Positions 237 through 26,074 of a DNA stretch of 33,027 bases are shown piece by piece. Origin of the DNA: Ignavibacteria bacterium (GTDB taxonomy: Bacteria > Bacteroidota > Ignavibacteria > Kapaibacteriales > Kapaibacteriaceae); assembly GCA_947495975.1 (NCBI GenBank), contig CANMBE010000021.1, forward strand, positions 1 to 33,027, read 5' to 3'. Every line of letters begins with the position of its first letter. Position 1 is the first letter of the stretch. Both the position numbers and the translations under genes were made by a program. A model generated the notes under the pieces. It saw nothing but the letters and a program-made list of their open reading frames with translations, searched no databases and was not told the DNA's origin.

Positions 237-1031
237 ATGCGTGATATTCTACTGTTAAGCTGCCCGATCGCAGGCAAAATTCTGCAAAGCATATATCTGT
301 TTGCGACGATAGCGGTTATTTCAGTTGTCTTAAACGTGCAGGCGGCAATGGCTCAAGATCCTTGCCAATGTGACGAGCCGTGCCCAACTAAATACAACTA
401 CACGAACTCCACGTCTAATTTTCTTTACAATAGAGTAATAACCGGCGAGACTGTTTATATCCCGACTCTAGGCAAAGATGTTAGTGTTGAAGTTCAAGTT
501 TGTTGCAGGATTCGGGTCGCTGCCTATAGTACCAAATATGTTAGTCCCACTATTTCAGCGTCATGCGAGACTGCAATTCGCTGCATCCGAGTTGCTAAGG
601 ATGAACTCCTTGATCAAGCCGAACCCGGATATCCTGTTAATAGCGCCCTTATTCGCAAAGAATTAATTCAAGCAGTTCTCGCTCTTGTTATGTGCAAGAA
701 TAGATGTGAACACGACCTGCCTGGAGTTGGTGCTTACCCAATCGAGTGGGTGTTCTCAATACCTAAATGTCTGGATTGGACCAAGACGTCAACCTCTTCA
801 CTTTTTTGGTGCCTAAAAGCTTGCGAAGATTCCCATACGTATTGTGTGTACGCTTATAAAATGATGAAGGGTGCAGGTGGATTGCCGAAGCCAATAGAAC
901 GAGTAGTTACAACGTGGACGCAGCCTAATGAGAGTACAACATGTCCAAGCGGCGAAACCTGTGTTACGCAGCCATGTGACACAGACTTTAGGGATTGTGG
1001 AAACTGGGATTTAAGTGCTAGGACATGGTGA
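237..1031 (+). CDS. Cysteine-rich secreted protein, function unknown
   Basis: I do not recognise a named family. The 264-residue product starts with a long hydrophobic N-terminal segment (about residues 12-38) ending in AAMA before QDPC, which fits a signal peptide cut near residue 39. The mature part carries 17 cysteines, many in close pairs (CQC, VCC, CETAIRC, CKNRC), suggesting a disulfide-stabilised extracytoplasmic protein. No sorting tail or membrane anchor is visible at the C-terminus. It sits just upstream of, and slightly overlaps or abuts, a large propeller-like T9SS protein, so the two are probably co-transcribed. The minus-strand gene at 5637-6299 has the same size class, cysteine richness and cysteine spacing in its middle and end, and lies next to a similar large partner, so I infer a paralogous pair of cassettes. 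No catalytic motif is seen. Coding status is well supported by length and signal peptide; function is open. Confidence 0.75.
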   Translation: MRDILLLSCPIAGKILQSIYLFATIAVISVVLNVQAAMAQDPCQCDEPCPTKYNYTNSTSNFLYNRVITGETVYIPTLGKDVSVEVQVCCRIRVAAYSTKYVSPTISASCETAIRCIRVAKDELLDQAEPGYPVNSALIRKELIQAVLALVMCKNRCEHDLPGVGAYPIEWVFSIPKCLDWTKTSTSSLFWCLKACEDSHTYCVYAYKMMKGAGGLPKPIERVVTTWTQPNESTTCPSGETCVTQPCDTDFRDCGNWDLSARTW

Positions 1032-1036
1032 TCGTC

Positions 1037-3271
1037 ATGAAGAAAAACCTCCAACGCGCTTCTATTATCATCTGTTGTCTAACCTACTTTTGTGTGGATT
1101 GCAGAACCCAACAGAGTATAGCATTGCCAACTAGCTATAAGTTCATCGCGAAGAATAATGCTTCTGTTTGTCTGGCAACTGATGTGACAATTTGCATTGG
1201 TTCAACTCTACTTGAAGAACTTAGCAACATACCTCTTCCGCAATTAAATTTCGGTAGTAGCCAGTGGTCGATTACTGGTATTGCTCTTTCAAAGAATGGC
1301 CGGTACGTGTATGTCGCTGCCTATGGTACTGATGGGCTATATCGCTATGATAAGATCGAAAAAGTATGGCGCACGATAACACCGCCGGATGCTGGGTCAG
1401 ATGTATCAGCGCTTCATGTTGACGAGAATAATGTACTAACAATTGGCACAGGTGGATACCCGGCCAGCCATGAATCAGATGCTCGGGGACTTTTCCAATC
1501 ACTCAGCAACGGCGAGGGATGGACTAAATATCAGTTTAAGGATTCTTCAGCTCGTTCGACTCCAGGCGTCACAGAAATTCAGTTGTGTGATGATGCCCGT
1601 TTAGCGATATCGTGTGTTCAGAAATCTGGCACTGCGGAATCAGGTATTTATATTGAGGGGCAAAACGGCGTTTGGAAGAGGTTGTCTAGCAGAACTGGAC
1701 AGATTCTTGCCTCGGGTAATTATCTCTATAGCTCGAATCCCACGGGTAGCTTGTCGATCATTGACTTGAACAATGAATCTGCGCCTCCAAAACAAGCGGA
1801 CGCACCAGCAACCATATTAGCTAAGTGGAAAGGGGACACAATCGCAGCGTTTTACGACGGGCTGGACGATGGAAGACCTGCAAGATTGAATTTACTGATT
1901 GGTAAATCTGTAGTGAGAGTTTTACCACTACCAAACACGCCAGACACGCCGGAAAAACTCAAGTTTGGTGCAATATTGACTGAAGATAATGCCACACAAT
2001 TTTTGTTACTAGGTGGCGGCAAGAATCGTCTGCTTGGTAATAGTGCTGAACTCATTTCCGAGGTTGTTAATTCGCGCCCACTGCCAAGTGCCGTAGGCAT
2101 CTTCGAAACTCCAAACTGGAGCGTTGCAAAGATAGATGGTCACGGTTGGTTTAGAATTATTGATGTTTCCAATTGGGTACAAGATTCATCAATGTTTCGC
2201 TTTCTTCCATTCTCTTCTTTGGATTTGCGCGCCGAAAATGATGGGTTGCTCGTAACGAAGCAAAGGAGCGTTGTATATGTAGGAGCGCTCACCACATCAG
2301 AAATTCTTTCACTCGAAGGCGATACTACGTTACTTAGTGCAGTACGTATTGATGATGATGCATTATTATGCTCTACGCACGAATTTGGACTCTTGTCATT
2401 CGATCTTGACACAAAGCAGTGGAGCCAGTTTCCAAGTGACGGATTGCCCGTAGTTACTGAAAGTGGGGGATCAAAGAGGCCAGCCAAAGCAAGAGCTGTT
2501 TTTCTTGTTGATAAAGAGATTTATGCATGGTATGATTTTGGCGAAGTAGCGTCAATAGAAGATGCGGGTCTCTATCGATTTTCAAGTTCTTGGTCAAGAA
2601 TAAATTCAATTGATTTGCCAGCAGGATGTGAATTACAGAAAATTCGTACATCCTCAAATAGAGCAATACTTACCCTTGCCCGGTATGAAAATTCTAGACT
2701 TGCGGGCTCATATGTGTTGCGCCTTCAGGTTATGGAACCAAAACAGATTGTTGTCAGTGACAGCCTATCAACTATTCCAGATGTGACAGATGCTTTAGGT
2801 AATGTTGACCAGTCAATGTGGATCACATCATACGGAGATGTTTGGACTGCAAAGCAGGGCTCGCTCAACAGAACAAAAGTCCTTGAAGGGTTGAACTCGG
2901 TTATTGGTTTGCTCAATGACAAGGGCTTAGTAGGAACAAGAGATAGGGGCCTTATTGTACTCGATGCTCCGTCATCGGTTCGAGAAAATAGTCTTGTCAA
3001 CAACAGAGACCCAATAAGTGTATGGCCTCTACCAGTTCAATCTGGTTCTATCCTTAACATCAGCGTTGAGGGTGAAGTCAACTGCATCAATAACATTGAT
3101 ATTTACAATCTTATTGGGGAAAGACTCAAAGCGCCCTCATTTACATTGAACAAAGATGAGTCAACGTGCACTGTTTCGATTCGTACGAATGGACTTGTGG
3201 GTTCGTATTTCATTGTAATGCAAAGTCCAACGGGATCAAGAGCCATTCCTATTATTGTAGAGGCCAACTGA
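1037..3271 (+). CDS. Secreted propeller-like protein with T9SS sorting domain
   Basis: The product is a 744-residue exported protein. The start at 1037 gives a normal signal peptide (MKKNLQRASIIICCLTYF) and has GGTGA five bases upstream; an in-frame ATG at 1025 would add only four residues and overlap the upstream stop. The body is rich in short beta-strand repeats such as ALSKNGRYVYVAAYGTDGLY and WRTITPPDAGSDVSALHVDE, in the style of two-component-regulator or Kelch-like propellers, but no exact family was assigned. From about residue 655 the sequence WPLPVQSGSILNISV, then IDIYNLIGERL, then LVGSYFIVM, matches the layout of a type A T9SS C-terminal sorting domain, so the protein is probably released to or anchored on the cell surface. 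It follows the cysteine-rich gene at 237-1031 without a gap, suggesting a two-gene operon. Ligand and role are unknown. Confidence 0.8.
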   Translation: MKKNLQRASIIICCLTYFCVDCRTQQSIALPTSYKFIAKNNASVCLATDVTICIGSTLLEELSNIPLPQLNFGSSQWSITGIALSKNGRYVYVAAYGTDGLYRYDKIEKVWRTITPPDAGSDVSALHVDENNVLTIGTGGYPASHESDARGLFQSLSNGEGWTKYQFKDSSARSTPGVTEIQLCDDARLAISCVQKSGTAESGIYIEGQNGVWKRLSSRTGQILASGNYLYSSNPTGSLSIIDLNNESAPPKQADAPATILAKWKGDTIAAFYDGLDDGRPARLNLLIGKSVVRVLPLPNTPDTPEKLKFGAILTEDNATQFLLLGGGKNRLLGNSAELISEVVNSRPLPSAVGIFETPNWSVAKIDGHGWFRIIDVSNWVQDSSMFRFLPFSSLDLRAENDGLLVTKQRSVVYVGALTTSEILSLEGDTTLLSAVRIDDDALLCSTHEFGLLSFDLDTKQWSQFPSDGLPVVTESGGSKRPAKARAVFLVDKEIYAWYDFGEVASIEDAGLYRFSSSWSRINSIDLPAGCELQKIRTSSNRAILTLARYENSRLAGSYVLRLQVMEPKQIVVSDSLSTIPDVTDALGNVDQSMWITSYGDVWTAKQGSLNRTKVLEGLNSVIGLLNDKGLVGTRDRGLIVLDAPSSVRENSLVNNRDPISVWPLPVQSGSILNISVEGEVNCINNIDIYNLIGERLKAPSFTLNKDESTCTVSIRTNGLVGSYFIVMQSPTGSRAIPIIVEAN

Positions 3272-3304
3272 GACAATAAATGTCCAGCCTAAAGCGCTGT
3301 CCCA

Positions 3305-3360
3305 CCATGGCGATGTTGACCATGATAGGCGTCTGGTCAAACGCGAGCGGAATCTCCAGC
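3305..3360 (+). repeat. IS21-like end repeat units between convergent genes
   Basis: The short gap between the two convergent propeller genes contains a clear unit running from CTGGTCA near 3332 through CGAGCGGAAT to CTCCAG near 3358. It is almost the same as the second unit of the cluster at 8181-8256 (TGGTC, CGCCAGCGGAAT, TTCCAG) and lies in the same orientation. A weaker upstream unit (TTGACCATGATAGGCG) precedes it. I read it as a decayed end of an IS21-type element. No hairpin terminator for the convergent genes is evident here. Confidence 0.35.
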
Positions 3361-3363
3361 TCT

Positions 3364-5556
3364 CTATCTTGCCTTAACCCGACTGCTTCGAGAATTGGAG
3401 TATTCATGCACATACAATTGGCCGTCACGGGCCTTTGTAAGCAGGGCGACTAATTGCTCTTGTACCTTGACGGTTACAAACGATCCAATCGGAATTTGGT
3501 CAGTCGCATACCAATCATTAACTACACTACGAGCAATCATTCTACCATCATACGACCAATTGTCGATTGAGAACGAGACGTTTTGGCTACCGTTCAGAAC
3601 TTGAATGTCATTATCATCCAAAACAATCTTCAACGGCGCATTTTTACTCCAGTCAGTTTCAACACTTGTAATCGTGGGCAATGTTAATTGGTAAAGCCTA
3701 GGGGAATCTGCGTCGTTTGCTACCGCCCATATGCGTCCTCCGCGGGGTCGACTACACGCAAGAAATGGTTCTGCAAGTGAGGTTGTAGGTGAGTACAATA
3801 CAGACTGTTTTGATTGATTGTCGTAAATGAATATGCCCCAAGGAAAGGCACAACCCGTGACTGTGTCACGATAATAACTCTCGATATCAACGCCGGTGTT
3901 GACCTCAAATGTTTCATTCTCTTGAAAGGCGTTTTGAAGTAACTGACCTATCTTGAAACGCTGCCGAGGAGATGGCCCTTCGAAATAACGACCTGTCAAA
4001 ATGAGTGTAGTATCTAACGGAATACAGGCTACATATTGTGAAGCCATTGGCACCGGGATTTCCTTAGCAGACCCTTTGACGACAATACTGTGCTTACGAG
4101 TGGGTGGTGTGCCAGGCATGCTTTCAGAAACAATGACACCTTGTTCGCTAACTGAAATCGAGACCACAGCAAAACTTGAGGATTCCGTGCTGTAGATCTG
4201 TTGTGGTGGTTCTGAACTTCGGTTGGTTTGAAACAGCCCTCTAGGCGTTGAATAGTAAACAGTATCGTCGTGAATTGCAGCGGCAATAATCACATCATTG
4301 CTCTGGACAACCTCCTGAACGATATCACTGAATGCAAACACTCTTTTGCTCGTTGTGAAGCAAAGCACACTGGAATCTGATAGCGTTGTCGGCTGGTAGT
4401 ACTCATCTGGCGCAAGCGTGATGTAAAAGACATCCGATACTTGCATTCTATCGAGGTCAAAGTGAATAAATACAGCGACCTTCTCTGAAGAAACACCTAG
4501 TGTTGGCCCCGTTGCAACTCCCGCTACCCGTAGCTGATTTGAAGATACATTCACTATTGCTGTGACGTTGTGCTCATAGTGCTGATAATCCATGGACACA
4601 CGATATTGATCGTTTGCGATGTTGTAAACCACGAACCCCGAGGTTGAACCAATCGCAACAACTTCCGAACCGCTCCCTGGGGATTCCAGTTGAGGTGACT
4701 TCAATCTGAGCGTTCCCGAGTAAGCAATGGTACCGCTACTCAAAGTAATTGAATAGGAAGCCGTAGCTGCAGTAGAATCTTTTCCCAACACAAGTAATCT
4801 CTTACCATCGGTTACAGCTGAGTAAGCTGAGTGACGAAATGATAGAGCAATTGTGTCAACAACCACCTCACCTCTTGCGATGTACAAAGAGGAATCACTG
4901 ACAAAAAATACACTACTGTCATCCGCGGTCAACAATGTCGCACCTGAAATCGACGCGAAAGGTTGTTTAGAATGGGTTGTAATATCCAAACGCAGCACAC
5001 CTGATTGTGTTTCCACATAGGCAACATTGTCGAAGCACGACATTTGTTGAACATCAATAAGAAGAGTATCAAGTTCTGCCGGATTGTTTTCAGTATTGTA
5101 CTCAATAAGATTATTGTTCTGCAAGAACAATAATCGATTGTCCCAAGCATGCACTAGACTCTGAGGGATGAAAGTCAACTTTCCAACCGCCGAAACTAAG
5201 TCGTTCTTGACACGATAGACGGAATCATTCGATACGATGTAGGTGGTTTCGGAAAATGAATCAAACCTCGATTCACGGTGAGGGGGCACTACATTTGGAG
5301 TGAATTGAAAAGCGCCATTTGCGCCGTCATTCCTCCAGCGCCCGCCACTGGAAAGATGCACTGTTCTGAGTGTGGAAGATGAACGCCAATTGGTTGATGT
5401 AATATTAGCTTGCCATGGTAGAACAAGATGGCGCACGGCCGAATCGACTGTGTATGTTCCTATACTAATCTGAGCAACGAGAGTTACTGGTGTTAGCAAA
5501 GTGCAAACCAGCCAGAGTAGCGTGACAGAGAACAAGCAACACATAGATGCCTTCAT
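3364..5556 (-). CDS. Secreted propeller-like protein, function unknown
   Basis: This 730-residue exported protein has an N-terminal signal peptide: a hydrophobic core at about residues 6-27, with cleavage after TLVA before QISIG. GAGG lies about six bases before the ATG. The body consists of repeated short beta-strand units (examples: YIVSNDSVYRV, LFLQNNNLIEYN, VFFVSDSSLYIA, VYYSTPRGLFQT), consistent with a beta-propeller, but no named family was recognised. The last about 75 residues (SFSIDNWSYDGRMIARS, then IPIGSFVTVKV) resemble a divergent T9SS sorting domain, less convincingly than in the plus-strand counterpart. It is the last gene of a minus-strand set that begins at 6860, and it faces the similar gene at 1037-3271. 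Similar length, export and partner suggest the two propeller proteins are diverged counterparts; I could not show residue-level homology by eye. Confidence 0.78.
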   Translation of the reverse strand: MKASMCCLFSVTLLWLVCTLLTPVTLVAQISIGTYTVDSAVRHLVLPWQANITSTNWRSSSTLRTVHLSSGGRWRNDGANGAFQFTPNVVPPHRESRFDSFSETTYIVSNDSVYRVKNDLVSAVGKLTFIPQSLVHAWDNRLLFLQNNNLIEYNTENNPAELDTLLIDVQQMSCFDNVAYVETQSGVLRLDITTHSKQPFASISGATLLTADDSSVFFVSDSSLYIARGEVVVDTIALSFRHSAYSAVTDGKRLLVLGKDSTAATASYSITLSSGTIAYSGTLRLKSPQLESPGSGSEVVAIGSTSGFVVYNIANDQYRVSMDYQHYEHNVTAIVNVSSNQLRVAGVATGPTLGVSSEKVAVFIHFDLDRMQVSDVFYITLAPDEYYQPTTLSDSSVLCFTTSKRVFAFSDIVQEVVQSNDVIIAAAIHDDTVYYSTPRGLFQTNRSSEPPQQIYSTESSSFAVVSISVSEQGVIVSESMPGTPPTRKHSIVVKGSAKEIPVPMASQYVACIPLDTTLILTGRYFEGPSPRQRFKIGQLLQNAFQENETFEVNTGVDIESYYRDTVTGCAFPWGIFIYDNQSKQSVLYSPTTSLAEPFLACSRPRGGRIWAVANDADSPRLYQLTLPTITSVETDWSKNAPLKIVLDDNDIQVLNGSQNVSFSIDNWSYDGRMIARSVVNDWYATDQIPIGSFVTVKVQEQLVALLTKARDGQLYVHEYSNSRSSRVKAR

Positions 5557-5593
5557 TAGATGCCTCGATTGTAATCATTTTGCAAACGCGTGC

Positions 5594-5618
5594 GTGGTGC
5601 GCCCTGAGGACGCACCAC
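5594..5618 (-). other. Intercistronic hairpin
   Basis: In the 80-base gap between the minus-strand genes at 5637-6299 and 3364-5556, the RNA would read GTGGTGCGTCC, TCA, GGGCGCACCAC. This gives an 11-pair stem (one G-U) with a three-base loop. It is not followed by a T tract, so it is unlikely to be a simple intrinsic terminator. It could be a processing or stabilising structure that sets the ratio of the two products. Function is inferred. Confidence 0.45.
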
Positions 5619-5636
5619 ACATTCGTTTTTCTGAAT

Positions 5637-6299
5637 TTAGCCGGAACACACTGAATAGCACGTGCCGTTAGGTTGAGGTGGGGCAGGACATTCAGGAGTA
5701 CCGCTCGCTGCACCGGGGCCGGTTGGAGTCGCTATATATGCGCCAAATCGGTTACATACCTGCCATGGTCTGACACAGCAAACCTCACCACCACACGGCA
5801 CCCACCAGTAGGATTCTGGAATATGTGGCGCACCATCGTAGAAGGGGTAAATTCCCTGTATCCAGCAACCACCAGCTTGAGCTCGATATGTTGTTCGACA
5901 CTCGTCTGGATTAGGACCCGTGCCAGCACCCCAAAGTGGAGGATTCAATTGCAGCAATTGCTGGGTTACAGCTTGAATGACTTGCGTAGCATTCATACAA
6001 CTGCCACACGTCCATCCTGTAGTCCCAGCATCTACCCACCCAATGCTCAAATCGTAAAAGTTCGCTCCACCCACACATGCGATTCTAGCTTTAAACCACA
6101 CGGTAACAGGGCATGTGTTACCTCCACAAGTCAAGATCACTGTTCGTGACTGAAGTGCACCCCAAGGTTCCGTACAGCCTCCCGCCGGAATGGCGCACGG
6201 CGTGAAATCCGTAGGTGGTGACTTAGGCAGGCCTGCTTGTGCGCTAGTGTACGCTGTTCCTACACAAAACAGCAATAGCGCGATAAATAATGTACGCAT
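5637..6299 (-). CDS. Cysteine-rich secreted protein, function unknown
   Basis: The product has 220 residues, with a short clear signal peptide (MRTLFIALLLFCVGTAYTSA) cut before QAGLP. The start is supported by AGGAAAGG a few bases upstream. The mature part has 16 cysteines, among them CGSC, CGGEVCC and CNRF, and is rich in Gly, Pro and Trp, which suggests a compact disulfide-bonded extracellular protein. Its arrangement of features (a VTVWFKARIAC strand, a central CxxC, a C...GGCW segment, then a CC...C cluster) parallels the product of 237-1031 closely enough to suggest a common family. It lies between a small T9SS-tailed protein upstream (30-base gap) and a large propeller-like protein downstream (80-base gap containing a hairpin). 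No enzyme motif is visible; a structural or adhesive role with the propeller protein is only a guess. Confidence 0.75.
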   Translation of the reverse strand: MRTLFIALLLFCVGTAYTSAQAGLPKSPPTDFTPCAIPAGGCTEPWGALQSRTVILTCGGNTCPVTVWFKARIACVGGANFYDLSIGWVDAGTTGWTCGSCMNATQVIQAVTQQLLQLNPPLWGAGTGPNPDECRTTYRAQAGGCWIQGIYPFYDGAPHIPESYWWVPCGGEVCCVRPWQVCNRFGAYIATPTGPGAASGTPECPAPPQPNGTCYSVCSG

Positions 6300-6329
6300 T
6301 AAGCCTTTCCTTTGTTTGTTGATTCTTGT

Positions 6330-6860
6330 TTAGTTCGCGAGTTTGTGAATCAAGGTCGGCCTACCATTCGCACAAACACCCACAACAAGGAGTGTCGTTT
6401 GCAAATCAGTTGAAATGTCTGCGATGTACGCTGCAATCTGATGGGTGGACCATCCTGCTACAACAACTTCCTTGACAGGACGACCTAAAACATCCAAAAA
6501 TCGAATCATTTCGTAATCATTTGTCTGGAGTAGTTGTTTCGACATCTGCGCACTTTCGATACACGTACTGTTCACTTGATCCCTACTAGACGAAAACCCT
6601 ATCACTGGAAGTTGCGCAACTTGTGCACAATCGTTTGGGTTCGCAATCGTCCAGTCCTCAGCTGTTCTGACCCATATCCTGCCGGATGGCGAATAGTAGA
6701 CAGCTTGTCTCAATGAGTTGGTCGTTCTTGCGACGAGCGTAAGAGTCCTCCCGTCGTCTGATTTGTATACAGCGCCCATCTCATCAACGTAATACCCGGA
6801 TATCGGCACCGCTGTTGCGGCAAACGTTATCAGCGTGAGGCTGATTGTTGTCAAAAACAA
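6330..6860 (-). CDS. Small exported protein with T9SS-like tail; 5' end doubtful
   Basis: The frame gives up to 176 residues but begins at a TTG, which is unusual here. The N-terminus (LRLFLTTISLTLITFAATA) is a clear signal-peptide core. Upstream in frame there is only a short run back to a TAA. An ATG at 6871-6873 lies in a different frame and would join the signal peptide only by a one-base shift, so the original start may be lost. The middle reads like one or two propeller strands (AVYKSDDGRTLTLVART, AVYYSPSGRIWVRT). The end (IRFLDVLGRPVKEVVV, then LIHKLAN) matches a type A T9SS sorting tail. It heads the minus-strand set and lies 21 bases from a putative IS66 end at 6881. It may be a truncated relic of a larger propeller protein, still possibly translated. 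Confidence 0.55.
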   Translation of the reverse strand: MFLTTISLTLITFAATAVPISGYYVDEMGAVYKSDDGRTLTLVARTTNSLRQAVYYSPSGRIWVRTAEDWTIANPNDCAQVAQLPVIGFSSSRDQVNSTCIESAQMSKQLLQTNDYEMIRFLDVLGRPVKEVVVAGWSTHQIAAYIADISTDLQTTLLVVGVCANGRPTLIHKLAN

Positions 6861-8180: not shown

Positions 8181-8256
8181 AGTGGTCAGTTATGTGCGGA
8201 ATGAATTGGTCCACGCCAGCGGAATTTCCAGTTACTCTGCAGAGGAATTGATTGGT
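8181..8256 (+). repeat. Three IS21-like end repeat units
   Basis: Three successive units of about 25 bases are seen: AGTGGTCAGTTATGTGCGGAAT at about 8181-8202, a TGGTC...AGCGGAAT...TTCCAG unit at about 8207-8231, and a degenerate TTACTCTGCAGAGGAATT unit to about 8250. They share orientation and spacing with clusters at 46-115 and 3305-3360. The cluster marks the edge between decayed accessory DNA and the tRNA-Arg/rpsT housekeeping genes. Assignment to the IS21 family is by resemblance only. Confidence 0.4.
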
Positions 8257-8295: not shown

Positions 8296-8307
8296 TAGTT
8301 TCTGTTG

Positions 8308-8381
8308 TGGACCCGCAGGGATTCGAACCCCGAACCTTCTGATTCGTAGTCAGATGCTCTATCCAGTTGAGCTACGGGTCC
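8308..8381 (-). tRNA. tRNA-Arg (anticodon ACG)
   Basis: The minus strand folds as a complete 74-base cloverleaf: acceptor stem GGACCCG/CGGGTCC, D arm with GCTC/GAGC, anticodon arm TCTGA-CTACGAA-TCAGA with anticodon ACG, five-base variable region, T arm with TTCGAAT, and discriminator A. CCA is not encoded; the gene is followed by CAA. The ACG anticodon, read as ICG after deamination by TadA, decodes CGU, CGC and CGA. A hairpin terminator follows directly. Confidence 0.95.
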
Positions 8382-14138: not shown

Positions 14139-14289
14139 TAAAACTCACTTGCTCAGAATAGACATTGTGCATATTTTGGATATCACGGTAGCGTAACACC
14201 TACTGGTGCAGCTCTGTCTGCGCCAAATAATCGACATAAAAAAGAAACAAAAACTGTACGTACAATTCCAACTTATCAGTGGTATACCT

Positions 14290-17200
14290 ATGAAAAGGAT
14301 TTACTCCTTTGTATTGGGCTTAGTCTTTATCGTTGGCTTGATGAGCTTCTCAACAGAAGCACAAGCACAATATTGCAAGCCAGCACTCATGCCTGGATTC
14401 TGGGGTCAAGGCATTTCGTTCTTCCAGTTCGGCACGTTCTCACTTTATTCGCCCGCTGGTGATTATGCCAACCAGACTGGATACAGTCATTACACAGCAA
14501 CAACGTTGTCTGCTGCTCGGGCTACCCCGATTACTACGAAAATCCAAACAAATGCCTTTGGCCAAAAAGGCTATTCTATCTGGATTGACTTTGATCAGGA
14601 TGGAATTTTTACATCGGAAGAACGCGTGCTTTGCGTTGTTGACCCAGCCTTCGGTCCATACTTGTATAATACGACGGTTACGATACCCTGTTCTGCTCGA
14701 ACGGGTGTTACTCGTATGCGTGTGTTCTTCATGACAAATGCTGGTGTGTGCCCTCAGGACCCGTGTGTATTCCCGGGCTATGTTCAGGGTGAATGTGAAG
14801 ACTACAACCTTGACATTATTGGTGACTTTGTTGGATCATTCCCGGATGAAAGTCCTGAAAGCTCAGCAATTTTGCCACGCGGTAACATCTATGATGGTGC
14901 AACTCCTACACGTCCAGCGCCAAGTATGGCGCTTCGTGCTGGATCTGCAAGCCAGAACTTCACAATTAAGTATCGCATCTTTGGACCACTGCCTCTAACG
15001 GATACCGTTTACAAGGCTGATTGGACAGCAACTGGTCCATCAACAGGAACGTTCCCTCAGAGCTTTGTTTCTTCCCCAAGCTCAGCATCCGGAATTGGTG
15101 CTGGCCCTGGTGGTTCTCTGGTCACTGGCAACCTCATTGGTGGCGAATATTCACTTCTTGTTCAGTCGCTTGGCGGCGTTTCTAGCTGTAATAATGATTG
15201 GTCAAAAGCATTTACCATTGCTGTGAACCGAGATATGTCTACGCGTGGTATTCGGGGACCTCAATCAAATGTGCAACCACGGCGTTACAAGTATCCAAAC
15301 ACAACTCCAATCCCTGTTGAAGCCATCTTCCAGAACGTAGGACTGGATACGGTAAAAGCGTTCCGTGGTATTGCTCGTATTACTGGTCCCTATGGTAACA
15401 ACGTTTTTACAGATACGGTTACCCTCAATGAGACTATTATTCCGGGCGCTAGATTAACGCAAGCGTTTAATAGCTTCATAGCTACTGGTACGGGCCACCA
15501 AGTTGGTCTGTATAAGACAACCGTGTGCACAGATCTTATTGATCCAGCCCCAGATGAAAACACATTCAACGATTGTATTCCACGTCCAGGACAAGCAGAC
15601 TACTATTTTGAGGTGGGCTACAACGAAGAGCCTGCTGTTAGCTCTGTAACTGTTCCTAGCGCAACACAGGTGTTGTTCGCGAATCGCCCATTCCGTCCAG
15701 AAGCCGTGTTTGAGAACAACGGTATTCAGGATCTTTCAAATGTTCCTGTGCGGTTGATTATCACGCGGATCAGCGATAACCTGGTTGTATACAATCAGAC
15801 GGGAATTGTTCCGGACATTGCCGCCGGACAATTCAACAAGGCCATCTATACATTCCCTTCATTCACACCAGCAGTTGGTGGCGATTATCGCTTCTGCTTC
15901 CGTGTTGAATATCCTGGCGACCCAGTTCTGACAAATAATGAAATTTGTGTAGTCCGCACGATCCAGGCAAATCTGGCCGGCGTGTACACAATTGGAGTAA
16001 CAAAGCCAGGACCTCGGAACTACCTCTCTATTGATTTAGCACTCGCTGATCTCTACCTTAGGGGTCTTAGCGGTGCAATAACATTTGAGTTCACTGATGA
16101 GAGTTATACCCAGACAACCACGGGTATCAACACTCCTGCAATTGATCTCTCTTCGAAAATTATTGGTGCAAGTTCAACCAATACTATTACATTCAAAACA
16201 ACGGTTGAGCGTTCAATCAATAAGGCTGCCGTTACCATTAATATGGTAACAGAGTCAGGCATTGGTGTTTTGTTGGGTCAAAACATGAACCCATCAAACA
16301 TTAATGCAATCCAAAAGCAGACGTATTATGGTAACGCACAGAATGCCAACTCAGCTGGCTATATCACCTTTGATGGTGGTGCACAAAAGTCGCTGAAGTT
16401 TACAATGAAGAAGACAGTTGTTGCAGCATTTCCATCACCTCTTGTGTCCGTATTCTACCTCTCGTCTGGTTCTTCGAATATGTTGATCAAGAACCTTATC
16501 ATTGGTATGGCAGATGGTGTAACTCCTAGCTACGCTACATCGCTTCCACAAGTGCAATTCAATGCAGGATCTAATCAGTTCCGTTTTGAGGCAAATACAC
16601 GCAGCACCACTATCAGCTATACAGCGGGTATTACTCAGAGAGACACCATTAACTCAGACAACCTTGGTAACATTGACACACTCATCAATGCGAACAATAA
16701 GTTCGTTGGTAATGAGATCAGTGGATTCGGTTATGGTATTGTTTCGATGGGTATTGGTGCTCTTATCAAGGCCGGAATCAACGACTTCCGTTCTTACTAC
16801 AACACTGGTACGGAGATTACCAACAACACCATCTTTAACGTACGCCGCGCAGGAATTTTTCTTGGCTACGAAGATGGTGTGAAGGTCATGTCTAACCGCA
16901 TCTACAACGTTGGTTCGTCAACTGGCGGCACTGAGACTGACTGTGCGGGTATCATTGCTGGTGGTGAGGTTCGCTATAACAACATGAATCTCAAGATTGC
17001 ACAGAATGAAATCAGTGGTGTGCGCGGTACAATTTGGAGCCGTGGTATTGTTGTTGAACAAGCCAGAAATGACTTCCAATCTATCAATGGCGTAAACAAG
17101 GGTTTTGGCCCACGCACACAGGCTGGCGTAGTAAGCTTCCCCAATAAGGCAGAACATACCTACGTTACGAGCAATGCTGTATGGGGACTCACACGTGTCA

Positions 17201-19773
17201 ACACAACTGGGAACATCGTTGGTATCCATTTGACTACACGTCGTGCAACTGCGGCAGTGACTCTTGCAGCATTGATTACGCCGGCAATCACAACATATTT
17301 CAGTGTTGGTGATTCGGTTGTAAACAATACAATCATTATTGCGAATGACAATATTGCTGGAACGGGCGCTATCATTGGTGTGACTGCACTTAATGCAAAC
17401 GCTCCAGTTATCATGAACAATGCTATTGCGCTGCAAGGCAATGTAGGTGCGGCTGCGCTTGCGCATTCCGCAATCTTCTACGAAGGAACATTGTTCCGCA
17501 ACGGTCAGGTGAATACATGGTATCTGCCAAACACAGCACCTGGTGCACTGATCTCAAATCGTAACGCTTTTTGGACACCAAATGCCGGTATAGCGCGATT
17601 TGTTGAAATCTCACACACGAGCGAGCTCGTTTCATCGGGTAATCAAGCAGAATTCACGACAATTGCTCAATGGCGTAACTGGACAGGACAAGACATCAAC
17701 TCCGTTGTTGGTGACATTTCTGCAGAGCATAACTATCTGGGTGTTGCTCCTAATCAGAAGCTTCGTGTCCGTGTTACTCCACTTCCTCCGATCGGATCGA
17801 TTCTCAATAATCGTGGTGCACGGCTAGCGGGCACAACAGTTGATCTAGATGGTGAAATCCGCGGCCAAGCTGGTCTTGGATATGATATTGGTTCTGATGA
17901 ATTCAATGGCCGACTCTATGTTAGTGACCTGGAGGCGATTGACATTCTCAAGCCGGGAGCGTATCGTGATGCTCTTGGTACAGCAAGCGACGCAGAATAC
18001 ATTATGACAACGGCTCCAGTAGACGTTACAGCTCGTATTCAGAATAATGGTGCTCTCGCAACTACCAATTCGCCAATCCGTGTAAGAGTGTTTCTTGAGA
18101 CAGCAGCATCGAATAATACCGATGCAGTTACTCCAACATGGAATGGGACTGCAGTTGTTGATCGCATTGTTAATTCCCCGCTTGCATCGGGACAGTCGAA
18201 AGATATTGTTTTCAATATCCCGTCATGGACACCGCAAACCTATTATGGTATGCCTGGCTATGTAGCTCCTGCTCGGTTTGCATCAATGGAGATTAACGTA
18301 ACGCCGCGCTATCGCATTGAGGTATCAACGTCTTCTGATGAGTTTAATCCGAACAATACAACTTCTAAGGTTGTGCGGTTCTTCTTGCGCAAGTCAACAA
18401 ATAGAATCGTTGTAAGTGCCCGAGGCTCATCAACGAACGTTTTGGTTGGTACTCCTACACCGAATGAAATTGCAGGTAGGCTAAACGCAGATAGCCTTCA
18501 GAAGGCTTTGGCTGATCTTGGATATAACAATGATCCATCGAACAACAGGTTTGATTATGATGTGTTCGAACGCAGTGCGTGGGCATCGCGGTCAGTGAAC
18601 TACACTGCATATCAAACGATGTTCTGGTCGCATGACCAATCTTCACTTACTCGTACTGAGCGTGATGACATTCGTAACTACATCGCTGCAGGCATGCCAG
18701 GCAAAAAGAAGAACCTTGCTATCTCTGGGCAAGGCCTCCCGGCACAACATGCTGGTTCAACTGTTGTTAGTGACATCAACTTTGTTCAAACAGCATTGCG
18801 TTCGATCAACCAGGCGCCGGGATCACCGTTCTCTCCTAATTACAGTGGTCGCCGCGTAGGTGGTGAAGCTCTTGCACGTAACACAGCAGAGTTGATAAGC
18901 CGTACTGGTTTTCTTAATGATGGCGAACCAACGCCAGCGCTTGTTCGGATCTATTCTAACCCGACAACTGCGGGTATTGCCAACGTAGCATATACGTATC
19001 GCAAGGGTGATCGCAGCACAGCAGATTCAATCATGGGTACTGCAACAGCTGCTATCGCAACGAATGCCGTCTACCTAGGTGTTGACTGGCGTCACTTTGC
19101 TCGCACAGAAGTTCGGTCCGGAATCGAACGTGTTGTTCGTGGAATATTCGACTTCTTCGAATCAAACGGTGGCGGACTGGTTCCTGTGTCTCTCGTATCA
19201 TTTGATGCAAAAGCACGTGGAAACAATGTGGACGTTTTCTGGGCAACTGCCTCGGAGAAGAACACAGACCACTTCGTAGTTGATCGTGCATCTGTCCATA
19301 GTGCCAAAGCTGGTGATGTTTCTTCATCGTCTGACTTTGCAACAATTAGCACGGTGCCTGCAACTGGCAATTCAACAACACGTCGCGACTATGCAATTGT
19401 GGATGATAAGCTTGCCCCTGGCAGCTACACATATCGTTTGACAGCTATCGACATGGATGGTGCACGTTCATCTTCACGTGAAGTAGATGTTACTATCGAT
19501 GGCGAAGGTAATGGTCTCTTCCTAGCGGAAGTCACACCTAACCCAGTTAACCAATCAGCAAAGGTTTCGTTTACACTTGCAAGTGCAGGCGAAGTACAAA
19601 TGGTATTGGTTAATGTTGCTGGTCAAGAAGTGCTCTCAATACTTACTGGCTCTTATGCCGCGGGTACACACAGCGCATCTATAGACGCAGCTTCTCTTGC
19701 AACGGGCACGTACACACTTGTGCTTCGTAGCAGCGGAATGGTTGTATCAAAGAATGTGACGATAGCGAAGTAA
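14290..19773 (+). CDS. Giant T9SS-exported mosaic protein (GEVED, Ig-like, beta-helix)
   Basis: The start at 14290 gives a clean signal peptide (MKRIYSFVLGLVFIVGLMSF... ending AQA before QYC); an in-frame ATG at 14206 would add 28 unlikely residues. Length is 1827. Domains in order: GEVED-like (GYSIWIDFDQDGIF at about 98, closing in GECEDYNLDI near 167); Ig/CARDB-like beta domains to about 560; a right-handed beta-helix region opening with GVYTIGVTKPGPRNYLSI and containing NNTIFNVRRAGIFLG; another CARDB-like domain (ARIQNNGALATTNSPIRVRV); a Rossmann-like segment at about 1375-1610; a fibronectin-like domain from SLVSFDAKARG (about 1634); and a T9SS type A sorting domain from VTPNPVNQSAKVSF (about 1748) to the end. 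It should be a large cell-surface or released protein, perhaps an adhesin or polysaccharide-binding protein. No catalytic site was identified. Confidence 0.9.
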   Translation: MKRIYSFVLGLVFIVGLMSFSTEAQAQYCKPALMPGFWGQGISFFQFGTFSLYSPAGDYANQTGYSHYTATTLSAARATPITTKIQTNAFGQKGYSIWIDFDQDGIFTSEERVLCVVDPAFGPYLYNTTVTIPCSARTGVTRMRVFFMTNAGVCPQDPCVFPGYVQGECEDYNLDIIGDFVGSFPDESPESSAILPRGNIYDGATPTRPAPSMALRAGSASQNFTIKYRIFGPLPLTDTVYKADWTATGPSTGTFPQSFVSSPSSASGIGAGPGGSLVTGNLIGGEYSLLVQSLGGVSSCNNDWSKAFTIAVNRDMSTRGIRGPQSNVQPRRYKYPNTTPIPVEAIFQNVGLDTVKAFRGIARITGPYGNNVFTDTVTLNETIIPGARLTQAFNSFIATGTGHQVGLYKTTVCTDLIDPAPDENTFNDCIPRPGQADYYFEVGYNEEPAVSSVTVPSATQVLFANRPFRPEAVFENNGIQDLSNVPVRLIITRISDNLVVYNQTGIVPDIAAGQFNKAIYTFPSFTPAVGGDYRFCFRVEYPGDPVLTNNEICVVRTIQANLAGVYTIGVTKPGPRNYLSIDLALADLYLRGLSGAITFEFTDESYTQTTTGINTPAIDLSSKIIGASSTNTITFKTTVERSINKAAVTINMVTESGIGVLLGQNMNPSNINAIQKQTYYGNAQNANSAGYITFDGGAQKSLKFTMKKTVVAAFPSPLVSVFYLSSGSSNMLIKNLIIGMADGVTPSYATSLPQVQFNAGSNQFRFEANTRSTTISYTAGITQRDTINSDNLGNIDTLINANNKFVGNEISGFGYGIVSMGIGALIKAGINDFRSYYNTGTEITNNTIFNVRRAGIFLGYEDGVKVMSNRIYNVGSSTGGTETDCAGIIAGGEVRYNNMNLKIAQNEISGVRGTIWSRGIVVEQARNDFQSINGVNKGFGPRTQAGVVSFPNKAEHTYVTSNAVWGLTRVNTTGNIVGIHLTTRRATAAVTLAALITPAITTYFSVGDSVVNNTIIIANDNIAGTGAIIGVTALNANAPVIMNNAIALQGNVGAAALAHSAIFYEGTLFRNGQVNTWYLPNTAPGALISNRNAFWTPNAGIARFVEISHTSELVSSGNQAEFTTIAQWRNWTGQDINSVVGDISAEHNYLGVAPNQKLRVRVTPLPPIGSILNNRGARLAGTTVDLDGEIRGQAGLGYDIGSDEFNGRLYVSDLEAIDILKPGAYRDALGTASDAEYIMTTAPVDVTARIQNNGALATTNSPIRVRVFLETAASNNTDAVTPTWNGTAVVDRIVNSPLASGQSKDIVFNIPSWTPQTYYGMPGYVAPARFASMEINVTPRYRIEVSTSSDEFNPNNTTSKVVRFFLRKSTNRIVVSARGSSTNVLVGTPTPNEIAGRLNADSLQKALADLGYNNDPSNNRFDYDVFERSAWASRSVNYTAYQTMFWSHDQSSLTRTERDDIRNYIAAGMPGKKKNLAISGQGLPAQHAGSTVVSDINFVQTALRSINQAPGSPFSPNYSGRRVGGEALARNTAELISRTGFLNDGEPTPALVRIYSNPTTAGIANVAYTYRKGDRSTADSIMGTATAAIATNAVYLGVDWRHFARTEVRSGIERVVRGIFDFFESNGGGLVPVSLVSFDAKARGNNVDVFWATASEKNTDHFVVDRASVHSAKAGDVSSSSDFATISTVPATGNSTTRRDYAIVDDKLAPGSYTYRLTAIDMDGARSSSREVDVTIDGEGNGLFLAEVTPNPVNQSAKVSFTLASAGEVQMVLVNVAGQEVLSILTGSYAAGTHSASIDAASLATGTYTLVLRSSGMVVSKNVTIAK

Positions 19774-19850: not shown

Positions 19851-21509
19851 ATGTCTGTCCTCCATTCGTCACCACTCTTTCGGTCAATACTCAGTGGAGT
19901 CCTTCTCGGACTTGCATTCCCTCAGGTTTTAGGAGGAATTGCAGGTGTGATCGTCTTTGTAGCCTTTGTGCCGCTGTTGTTTGTTATCGCTGACAGTGGG
20001 ACAAAGCACACTCGCTGGAGGCTCATAGGGCAACTCTATATTACATTCGTGATCTTTCATGGACTTACCAATTGGTGGGTCTGTTCATGGCAAGAGCAAA
20101 CAGATCCGTATCTCTTTGCAAGTGGTTTTGCCTTGTGGTTTGGGCATCCTTTTTTTCTGATGCTGCCCTTCGTGGCATTGGCCTCTATTCGCAAAAGACT
20201 AGGCGTTGCCTGGATGCTCTTGTGCACGCCCCTTGCTATATCAGGCTTCGAATGGCTTCATGGTCAAACTGATGCCTCGTATCCATGGCTAACAACCGGC
20301 TACACGCTGGTACATACCCCATTTGCACAGATTGCTGACACGGTTGGCGTATACGGGCTTAGCTTCTTGATTAGTGTTGTTAATGCCATCATTGTTTACG
20401 TGCTCCTGAAAAAGAGGTCTGGAGATGTAGCTCGCAGACAAATTCTCATTGTTGCCGCACTCGTCCTCATGTGGGGATTGATGGGTCTGTACAAACAATT
20501 GACGCCTACGGGCTCCGGCGGTACGATCAATGTCATGCTCGTGCAGCCAAATGAAGACCCATGGGAAAAATGGGGCGATGCACATGAGCAGGTGGCAGCA
20601 CATCAAGAATTGGTTGACTCGGCGCGTAAGGCTGGCCACGCCGTAGATCTTGTTGTTTGGAGCGAAACGGCTATACCCTATACCATCAGAGAGCCTCAGT
20701 CTAAACCTGAATGGGAAGAACTTCGCAAGTGGACAGACACGTCGGAGATTTCGTTGATCACGGGATATGCTGACGTGATGGTCTACCCAATTGGTCAGGC
20801 ACCGCCATCATCGAGACAGTCCAAGGTTGATAGATCAATTCGCTTTGACATATTTAATGCAGTAATGATGATCAACCCGCATCAGAGCGATGTGAGTGTA
20901 CACCGCAAGTCGATGCTCACACCGTTTGCTGAACGCCTTCCATTTGCTGATCAACTAACATTCGCTATGTCGTGGATTGAATGGGGCGTTGGCATTTCTT
21001 CATGGGGAAAAGGGCAAACCCGAAACCCACTTCCTGTTGTTAAAGGGGCCGATACTATTGCTACCGTTGGAGCCATCATCTGTATTGAGTCCATCTATCC
21101 TGAAGTAGCAAGGGATCTTGTCAATAACGGGGCGGATGTATTGTGCATCATCACGAATGACGCCTGGTATAATAGAACGTGGGGTCCGGAGCAACACTAT
21201 GACATTGCTCGGATGCGCGCAATCGAACAGCGCAGATCAATAGTACGTTGTGCTAATTCCGGTATCACAGGTTTTATCCAACCAGATGGGACAGATTTGC
21301 CTCATCCAGCGATTGCCCCTCTTACAAAAGGAGTTGCGACCGATAGAGTACAAAGGGTGTTAACGCGTACGGTTTATTCCGTAGTTGGCGACCCAATTCC
21401 CATCTTTGGACTCATCTTCACTCTCGTGGCACTCATTGCTGCACGATTTCCACTCTTCCTTCGTAATCTACCCTTTCGTTTCACTTCGATCGAGAATAAG
21501 GTACTATGA
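19851..21509 (+). CDS. lnt: Apolipoprotein N-acyltransferase
   Basis: Lnt transfers an acyl chain from phospholipid to the N-terminal cysteine of apolipoproteins in the inner membrane, the last step of lipoprotein maturation after Lgt and LspA. The 552-residue product has hydrophobic segments across residues 10-215 and a carbon-nitrogen hydrolase domain from about 225 to 500. The catalytic Glu-Lys-Cys triad is present: E272 in VVWSETAIPY, K353 in HRKSMLTPFAERLPF and C411 in GAIICIESIYPE. The motifs TNDAWYNRTWGPEQHYDIAR and RSIVRCANSGITGFI are also typical. It begins shortly after a strong terminator, so a promoter must lie in or near the hairpin. Its stop overlaps the start of the M16 peptidase gene (ATGA), the first link in a four-gene operon. 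Confidence 0.95.
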   Translation: MSVLHSSPLFRSILSGVLLGLAFPQVLGGIAGVIVFVAFVPLLFVIADSGTKHTRWRLIGQLYITFVIFHGLTNWWVCSWQEQTDPYLFASGFALWFGHPFFLMLPFVALASIRKRLGVAWMLLCTPLAISGFEWLHGQTDASYPWLTTGYTLVHTPFAQIADTVGVYGLSFLISVVNAIIVYVLLKKRSGDVARRQILIVAALVLMWGLMGLYKQLTPTGSGGTINVMLVQPNEDPWEKWGDAHEQVAAHQELVDSARKAGHAVDLVVWSETAIPYTIREPQSKPEWEELRKWTDTSEISLITGYADVMVYPIGQAPPSSRQSKVDRSIRFDIFNAVMMINPHQSDVSVHRKSMLTPFAERLPFADQLTFAMSWIEWGVGISSWGKGQTRNPLPVVKGADTIATVGAIICIESIYPEVARDLVNNGADVLCIITNDAWYNRTWGPEQHYDIARMRAIEQRRSIVRCANSGITGFIQPDGTDLPHPAIAPLTKGVATDRVQRVLTRTVYSVVGDPIPIFGLIFTLVALIAARFPLFLRNLPFRFTSIENKVL

Positions 21510-22840
21510 ATCTACCGACCACTCGGATCGCAGCCATTGTTGTTGCAATCCTGGTTCTTGCATTGCAGGCTTCGGCGCAATACAAGCCCCTTACCTTTAC
21601 AGAGTATGACCTGCCAAATGGTTTACATGTGATCCTCCATGAAGATCACTCGGCACCGGTCATCGCAACCGTTGTGCACTACATGGTGGGCTCTCGTGAT
21701 GAAGATCCTGCTCGCACAGGATTCGCACACTTCTTTGAACACCTGATGTTTGAATCAACAGATGTGATTGAACGCGGTACGCTCGATAAAATGGTGAATG
21801 GAGCTGGCGGACAGCTCAATGCATTTACAAGTAATGATCAGACAGTGTATCACTTTGTGTTGCCTTCTAATCAAGTGCGCCTAGCATTGTGGATTGAGGC
21901 ACAACGCATGCGAAAACTACACGTGAATACCATTGGCGTAGAAACGCAGCGCGGTGTTGTAAAAGAAGAACGCAAAAATCGATATGACAATGCGCCATAT
22001 GGTGGATGGATTGAGAAATCTCAATCGGTGTTGTTTGCAGGCACGCCATATCAATGGTCGCCCATCGGATCTGCGCAACACATCGATAGCGCATCGATTC
22101 CAGAATTCAAAGCATTCTACGATGCATTCTATCAGCCGAATAATGCAGTGCTCGTTGTGAGTGGTGATTTTGATGAGACACTAGTTCGAGAAACCATCAA
22201 TGCCTATTTCGGTGGGTATCAAAAAGGACCAGAACCTCGTCGGCCAAATGTTGGCGAACTCATACCATTGAGCGGCGAAATCCGAGAGACCATCAACGAT
22301 ACAAAGGCACAACTGCCAGCGTTGTTTATCTCATATCGTGCAATGAACCAGACAGATCCGGACGCCTACGCTGCGGATCTGCTTACAACTATTTTGTCCA
22401 ACGGAGAATCTTCTCGTCTCTACCACTCACTCGTTGATAGTCAGCAAGTGGCAGTGCAAGCAAGCATCTCAATGTTTCCGCGCGAATTTGTTGGCATGGT
22501 GTATTGCGTTGGGATTGCAGCTCCTGGTAAGGGGCTTGCAGATGTAGAAAAAGGAATAGACAGCGAGCTTGCACTCATCATGCGAGATGGCATCTCAGAC
22601 GAAGAGCTCATCAAAGCAAAGAACATAACCGAAGTAGGTTTTATTGAAGGTAGAATGGGTGTGTATGAAAAAGCTCTTGCCCTATCGAACGCATATCGAT
22701 TTGATAAAGCAACATCTGCTGTTAACGACGAAATGACGAAGTATATGAAGGTCACGAAAGCTGATATACAGCGCGTGGCAAAGAGAATCTTTGGCACCAA
22801 TCAACGCGTTGTTCTCACCTATTTGCCTGTGAAGGGGTGA
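21506..22840 (+). CDS. M16 zinc metallopeptidase, active subunit
   Basis: This 444-residue exported protein (signal peptide ending ASA before QYKPL, about residue 24) belongs to the insulinase/pitrilysin family M16. The inverted zinc motif HxxEH is intact as H75-FFE-H79, with E78 as catalytic base, and the third zinc ligand is one of the glutamates at 154-155 in GVVKEERKNRYDN. Other M16 features are ENGxHVILHEDHSAP-like strand sequence near residue 40, and FYDAFYQPNNAVLVVSGDF in the second half of the first domain. It has the two-domain length of a bacterial M16B subunit, which normally works with a second, often inactive, subunit; that partner starts three bases downstream. The location is periplasmic. 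It should degrade peptides or unfolded small proteins; substrate is unknown. Confidence 0.93.
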   Translation: MNLPTTRIAAIVVAILVLALQASAQYKPLTFTEYDLPNGLHVILHEDHSAPVIATVVHYMVGSRDEDPARTGFAHFFEHLMFESTDVIERGTLDKMVNGAGGQLNAFTSNDQTVYHFVLPSNQVRLALWIEAQRMRKLHVNTIGVETQRGVVKEERKNRYDNAPYGGWIEKSQSVLFAGTPYQWSPIGSAQHIDSASIPEFKAFYDAFYQPNNAVLVVSGDFDETLVRETINAYFGGYQKGPEPRRPNVGELIPLSGEIRETINDTKAQLPALFISYRAMNQTDPDAYAADLLTTILSNGESSRLYHSLVDSQQVAVQASISMFPREFVGMVYCVGIAAPGKGLADVEKGIDSELALIMRDGISDEELIKAKNITEVGFIEGRMGVYEKALALSNAYRFDKATSAVNDEMTKYMKVTKADIQRVAKRIFGTNQRVVLTYLPVKG

Positions 22841-22843
22841 GCC

Positions 22844-26024: not shown

Positions 26025-26074
26025 GTATATTGCGCTACCAGTGCTGTAACGAAATTGTAAAAGAGGAACATCGA

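Follow-up and report, generated by a model that had tools for sequence, protein, structure and literature searches.

A cysteine-rich exported protein and a large exported partner are encoded by a gene pair that recurs in Kapaibacteria-type bacteria

The window analyzed here is a 33,027-nucleotide contig (CANMBE010000021.1, assembly GCA_947495975.1) of an Ignavibacteria bacterium in the order Kapaibacteriales, and near its left end two gene cassettes face each other. In cassette A (+ strand), P0001 (237-1031), an exported cysteine-rich protein of 264 amino acids (aa) with 18 cysteines, is followed by P0002 (1025-3271), an exported propeller-type protein of 748 aa with a C-terminal tail like those of type A cargo of the type IX secretion system (T9SS). 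In cassette B (- strand), P0004 (5637-6299), exported, cysteine-rich and 220 aa long with 17 cysteines, is followed by P0003 (3364-5556), an exported 730-aa protein whose fold is putative only and which has no recognizable T9SS tail. We found that a cysteine-rich gene next to a large exported partner, most often an Asp-box propeller, recurs as a gene pair in Kapaibacteria-type bacteria and that the two pairs in the window are divergent. That the window carries one cassette in two divergent copies, and that its products act together as a ligand-binding or adhesive complex at the surface, is a proposal that we regard as evenly balanced on the sequence evidence laid out below.

The open reading frame (ORF) map confirms the convergent arrangement described in the first-pass annotation, with P0001 leading into P0002 on the + strand and P0004 into P0003 on the - strand. 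The P0001 and P0002 ORFs share 7 bp, P0004 and P0003 are spaced 80 bp apart, and the gap between the convergent ends of P0002 and P0003 is 92 bp, with an unremarkable RNA fold (z -1.66). A small secreted protein of 16-17 cysteines followed by an exported protein of about 740 aa was also a fair description: one cysteine of the 18 in P0001 and one of the 17 in P0004 lie inside the hydrophobic leader. Each of the four genes has an ATG start and a hydrophobic leader, as judged by eye and by hydrophobicity rather than with a dedicated signal peptide predictor.

To compare the two small proteins, we removed the leaders and aligned a profile of 84 P0004-family sequences (P0004 included) with one of five P0001-type sequences. 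The hhalign score was 41.0 (86.8% probability, E 4.3e-6) over 109 columns at 16% identity, against a maximum of 21.9 in 200 column shuffles that kept the cysteine content and 13.0 for the reversed profile; an earlier comparison with the leaders included had reached a probability of 34%. The aligned span runs from a V-x-V strand with R-x-R through a helix and a second central cysteine segment to a C...C-V cluster, which is close to the common cysteine layout that had been claimed for these proteins. By profile comparison, then, P0001 and P0004 are remote homologs. Neither matched a Pfam or NCBIfam family above cut-off, and P0004 had no match in either collection even at E 1. Two sub-threshold Pfam matches, Nodulin_late in P0001 (E 0.17) and Somatomedin_B in one of 13 P0004-family members (E 0.035), were taken as chance.

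The two branches of the family differ in how often they were found among 123 genomes of the order (genomes are numbered G and fetched loci L). A P0001 query matched six of these genomes at E 0.01, its own included; the relatives are convincing in G013, G019, G020, and G027, and marginal in G015 and for a second match in G013. A three-row P0001 profile added a G019 fragment with two stops (E 2.2e-6); its matches in G018 and G100 were marginal. P0004 as a single query matched 19 of the 123 genomes, and a 13-row P0004-family profile matched 50, spread over 31 of 51 genera, with 138 matches in total and up to 10 per genome, some of them pieces of one gene. P0004 itself matches this profile at E 5.7e-54, being one of its rows, and P0001 joins the family as a remote relative through the profile comparison. 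In a sample of 395 genomes of the phylum, for which the order's own share was left uncounted, the family occurred in 15, all inside the order. Eleven family loci lie in named records, under Candidatus Kapaibacterium, Ignavibacteria, Ignavibacteriae, Bacteroidetes, and, once, Melioribacter roseus; our label "Kapaibacteria-type" is taken from these names. No relatives were found on viral contigs (queries A2 and A4), and P0004 had no match on plasmids; phage records were not searched, nor were plasmids with P0001. The family defined here is thus frequent in a poorly studied order and is tied to a specific class of partner.

An AlphaFold2 model of the mature part of P0004, built from 12 aligned sequences, had a predicted local distance difference test (pLDDT) score of 76.8 and a predicted template modeling (pTM) score of 0.78, and places three long strands before a helical segment and further strands. 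Foldseek searches of the PDB and BFVD returned no match with an E value of 0.001 or lower, the best VIA-align Z was 3.0, and the cysteine-rich profile found nothing better than E 0.5 among PDB sequences. For the modeled fold we therefore found no convincing relative, either solved or predicted for a virus, which does not by itself prove the fold new. Most of the 22 long family ORFs (at least 340 aa) bear extra cysteine-rich sequence ahead of the domain, and the one at L038 carries DUF7948 and SBBP repeats.

We then asked which genes accompany the family. Ninety regions, drawn from single-query and profile hits with the stronger favored rather than from all 138 matches, yielded together with the window 87 family ORFs; genes were called as greedy longest ORFs, export was scored by a hydrophobicity test, Asp-boxes by a regular expression and, in one count, tails by a crude expression, and near-identical copies (e.g., L165 and L169) were kept. 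Walking downstream past small intervening genes, we met an Asp-box propeller next in 57 cases, 50 of them directly, another large ORF without Asp-boxes in 13 (including P0004 of the window), and a contig end in eight. Hence, 57 of the 79 family ORFs with a readable downstream region have an Asp-box propeller next, compared with 29 of 483 other genes under the same rule, in which the walk halts at a cysteine-rich gene. Counting only direct neighbors, the proportions were 50/79 and 25/528 (Fisher P 8e-34, relatedness ignored). A cruder rule, which asked for a same-strand ORF of 380 aa or more with a hydrophobic leader at a gap of 200 bp or less, gave 51/80 for the family and 82/565 for the background. 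The first-pass annotation had staked its module on profile similarity between the small proteins and on the same adjacency in other genomes; both were found. In the literature on T9SS, Kapabacteria, and sortilin or Asp-boxes, we saw no title or opening of an abstract that describes the pair, most subscription papers lying outside the search.

The partners are largely of one kind. With tails removed, 47 of the 58 partners that are at least 340 aa long fall into one homology cluster, and two of the three scanned against Pfam (L187 and L190) match Sortilin-Vps10 (E 1.6e-12 and 3.4e-17) and PSII_BNR above cut-off; in the third, L056, matches to these families stay below cut-off. The partners share their Asp-box repeats with YCF48/HCF136-like (PSII_BNR) and BNR-repeat propellers but differ from them in genomic partner and in the T9SS tail. 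A minority class of partners (L043:4638-6773, L154:364-2595, L168:3797-5953, and L177:2862-5060) is 711-743 aa long and lacks clear Asp-box repeats; these proteins end in a T9SS-like tail and, compared without it, cluster by homology among themselves.

Within the window, the large proteins belong less clearly together than the small ones. A nine-row P0002-family profile found propellers as its best PDB matches, with 4a2l first (E 3.3e-4), the propeller SAKe6FR also present, and 3ott at E 0.15. The PDB proteins 4a2l and 3ott are named sensor histidine kinases of two-component systems, whereas P0002 has a T9SS-like tail instead. Eight of the nine P0002-family members have an Asp-box near residues 150-190; P0002 has a single degenerate one, and the Pfam scan gave it no Sortilin-Vps10 match. 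P0003 has no Asp-box by the regular expression used and no Sortilin-Vps10 match, and its only propeller match in Pfam, VPS11_N, is sub-threshold (E 7e-4). The name "propeller" given to both proteins at first is therefore supported for P0002, and for P0003 by that sub-threshold match only. In profile comparisons, at least two of whose shuffled inputs gave stale or zero scores, the P0002 family scored 45.9 against the Asp-box partner cluster (107 columns, probability 51%; maximum of 60 shuffles 18.7) and 28.6 against P0003 with its relative, under the 60-shuffle maximum of 30.2, while P0003 scored a weak 22.6 against the cluster (shuffle maximum 18.4). A relationship between the two large proteins was thus not detected. 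The idea of a repeated two-gene module holds in that the cassette recurs, but the window's large proteins are not recognizably one family.

Relatives in other genomes indicate that the adjacency in the window is more than chance. A P0001-type gene is followed by a P0002-type gene in all five places where we saw one (the window, L044, L045, L046, and L047). The P0002-family profile has 10 long matches across the order, the window included, amid many short matches to tails or Asp-boxes, and five of the long ones have no P0001 neighbor: G014, where a contig end cuts the locus, and G008, G015, G023, and G024. P0001-type genes therefore occur with P0002-type genes wherever seen, but the converse fails. 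P0003 has a single relative besides itself in the 123 genomes (G008, locus L050); there, too, a P0004 relative is encoded upstream, and one small ORF separates the two. That small ORF (L050:7999-8565) is weakly similar to P0005 (6330-6860, - strand), a 176-aa exported protein with a TTG start and a hydrophobic beginning that lies upstream of P0004 and sets the right limit of the cassette region (single blastp comparison, 31.6 bits, E 2e-6); a search of the 123 genomes with P0005 found its own copy only. In view of this counterpart in G008, cassette B may have three genes, P0005 being a possible third member.

Secretion signals were examined with a tail profile built from 17 seed tails of both kinds of gene, which match by construction. 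Of 85 complete cysteine-rich ORFs, 34 carry a T9SS-like tail by this profile, and the other 51 have no recognizable C-terminal domain (CTD); the extension beyond the cysteine-rich domain measures 0-11 residues in 44 of the 85 and 97 residues and more in 36. Where a large neighbor could be read, under a rule looser than the Asp-box walk, the neighbor was tailed for 25 of 37 tail-less and 25 of 26 tailed cysteine-rich ORFs. By the tail profile P0002 has a C-terminal sorting domain (E 3e-7), but with 14.7 of 27 bits in Pfam and 12.7 of 23 in NCBIfam it stays under the curated cut-offs; TIGR04183 matched five of nine P0002-family members at E values of 0.1 or lower (best 6.7e-7). P0003 (E 0.36) and P0004 (E 0.69) gave no such tail, P0001 was unreported at E 10, and P0005 had none. 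The window's genome encodes SprA (TIGR04189, 917 bits with neighbors in frame included; present in none of 14 control genomes) and PorZ (NF052228, 329.8 bits, at G000:C15:30450-32684, the sole match above cut-off). T9SS cargo needs a CTD, and some cargo is anchored via PorU and PorZ (PMC11285876). Most partners and the tailed cysteine-rich proteins resemble T9SS type A cargo (PF18962/TIGR04183) in combining a signal-peptide-like leader with a C-terminal sorting domain, and the tail-less cysteine-rich ORFs and cassette B differ from it in having no recognizable CTD. A surface location, as first proposed, fits the partners' tails and the presence of SprA and PorZ, but cassette B offers no recognizable tail.

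We suggest that both products of a pair would cross the inner membrane by Sec and that the cysteine-rich domain, once oxidized, would fold in the periplasm. The partner's CTD would then take the partner through the T9SS to the cell surface, and the cysteine-rich protein would be exported either by its own tail, as in the 34 tailed copies, or bound to its partner. A surface complex of the cysteine-rich protein and the propeller is plausible; it would serve in ligand binding or adhesion, with the propeller giving the binding face and the disulfide domain stabilizing, capping, or docking the propeller. If tail-less members do ride on a CTD-bearing partner, T9SS export of preformed complexes becomes testable.

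Several results weigh against such a dedicated complex. First, co-divergence across 46 pairs in 30 genomes (Spearman 0.26) was equaled or exceeded in 13 of 2,000 full permutations and in 717 of 2,000 permutations of partners within genomes, so the signal is not specific to the pair. Second, none of the 22 long family ORFs contains two or more Asp-boxes, and a fusion to an Asp-box propeller was therefore not seen. Third, 22 of the 79 readable family ORFs lack an Asp-box partner: besides the 13 next to another large ORF, five have an opposite-strand neighbor and four have none. Fourth, the background rises to 66/479 when the walk may traverse a cysteine-rich gene. Fifth, P0002 relatives stand without a cysteine-rich neighbor in G008, G015, G023, and G024, as does a weaker one in G010 (43 bits). 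Finally, cassette B carries no tail by profile on P0003, P0004, or P0005.

An alternative explanation, which we consider possible though rather less than probable, is that the two genes encode independent T9SS or envelope cargo, kept in one operon for co-expression and forming no physical complex. The own tails of 34 cysteine-rich ORFs, the co-divergence that is not specific to pairs, and the solitary P0002 relatives are all in keeping with it. However, such an arrangement would not call for so strong an excess over background of a single protein type, the Asp-box propeller, beside the cysteine-rich gene, and the tail-less copies would be left in the periplasm while their neighbors reach the surface.

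Among the closest known likenesses of the pair is the Vps10p domain of sortilin-family receptors, which likewise combines an Asp-box beta-propeller with a disulfide-rich module; partners L187 and L190, as noted, match Sortilin-Vps10 above cut-off. Here, by contrast, a gene of its own encodes the cysteine-rich part, the proteins are bacterial, and they bear T9SS tails. Sortilin_C was found in none of 13 P0004-family members at E 0.1, and the P0004 model gave no confident PDB fold match that would indicate a 10CC-type fold, which does not exclude that fold; as to the ten-bladed propeller of the Vps10p domain, the AlphaFold2 model of partner L126 was of low confidence (pLDDT 42.3). Only tentatively, as a possibility with the balance against it, do we put forward that a new secreted disulfide-rich family, matching no recognized sequence family and no solved structure convincingly, joins Asp-box propellers exported by the T9SS in dedicated complexes at the surface. 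In design, such a complex would be the bacterial counterpart of the Vps10p receptor domain, split over two genes, and the CTD-bearing partner would take tail-less members through the T9SS. Pairing an Asp-box propeller with a disulfide module encoded apart from it would amount to an independent version of the sortilin design.

We judge it improbable that the pair is carbohydrate-active, with the propeller as a glycoside hydrolase (GH) or lectin and the cysteine-rich protein as a binding module. Asp-box propellers do include GH33, GH58, and GH74 proteins, and the same source describes Asp-boxes as structural and highly unlikely to bind ligands (PMC2716378). A weak NCBIfam match to "F510_1955 family glycosylhydrolase" occurs in seven of nine P0002-family members (best E 1e-5), that of P0002 scoring 14.9 bits where the cut-off is 175, but no GH family exceeded its cut-off in the proteins scanned. 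A role in antagonism or self/non-self recognition, as an exported effector with its cognate protein, seems more remote still: the presence of several divergent matches in one genome (as many as 10) would suit it, as would a sub-threshold Tli3 immunity match in partner L190 (E 1.8e-4), but L190 is an Asp-box repeat protein, in which a weak Tli3-type match is expected, and the proteins scanned against Pfam showed no toxin domain (PADLOC was not searched). PorZ has propellers. That P0002 or P0003 is a PorZ-like component of the T9SS machine rather than its cargo, despite the similar size, a weak PorZ match in one of nine P0002-family members (E 0.02), and the CTD retained in PorZ (PMC11285876), is largely refuted and the least credible reading of all, since the genome's PorZ gene sits on contig C15 and, of the 10 PorZ matches with E values of 0.1 or lower, none falls on the window's contig; P0002 was rejected as PorZ.

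Other genes recur around the pairs. Behind P0002 relatives at L044:11951-12961, L045:15611-16636, L046:2981-4006, and L212:1464-2474 comes a third gene, whose product of 336-341 aa contains Asp-boxes and shows no obvious signal peptide; at L047 there is a 103-aa ORF that begins similarly, and the window has neither, cassette B lying in its place. Upstream of some cysteine-rich genes (L055:502-2765, L123:5359-7580, and L059:560-2821), we noted by eye genes resembling an extracytoplasmic function (ECF) sigma factor, an anti-sigma factor with a barrel-like C terminus, and a lipoprotein of 150-160 aa. Small exported proteins also lie near the cysteine-rich gene in other genomes, for example at L058, L146, L147, L150, L167, and L183.

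The first-pass annotation had also mentioned transposon traces around the cassettes. The 12-bp motif GCGGAATNTCCA occurs in three exact same-strand copies in the window, against 0.00 expected for a pattern that was chosen post hoc: upstream of cassette A (85-96, +, GCGGAATTTCCA), where it may be the remnant of an insertion-sequence end; in the stretch that separates the two convergent cassettes (3347-3358, +, GCGGAATCTCCA); and beyond cassette B (8219-8230, +, GCGGAATTTCCA), near tRNA-Arg (8307-8381). In 1.56 Mb of other fetched loci, counting overlaps, we found one further copy besides the re-fetched window copies. We take the three copies to resemble the end repeats of insertion sequences, and they lend weak support to the transposon traces, but no transposase gene was identified, no dedicated search having been run. 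Farther along the window, the large genes at 14206-19773 and 26030-28087 have, by eye, ends like those of T9SS cargo, and two adjacent genes at 21506-25048 look, by a motif, like M16-type peptidases.

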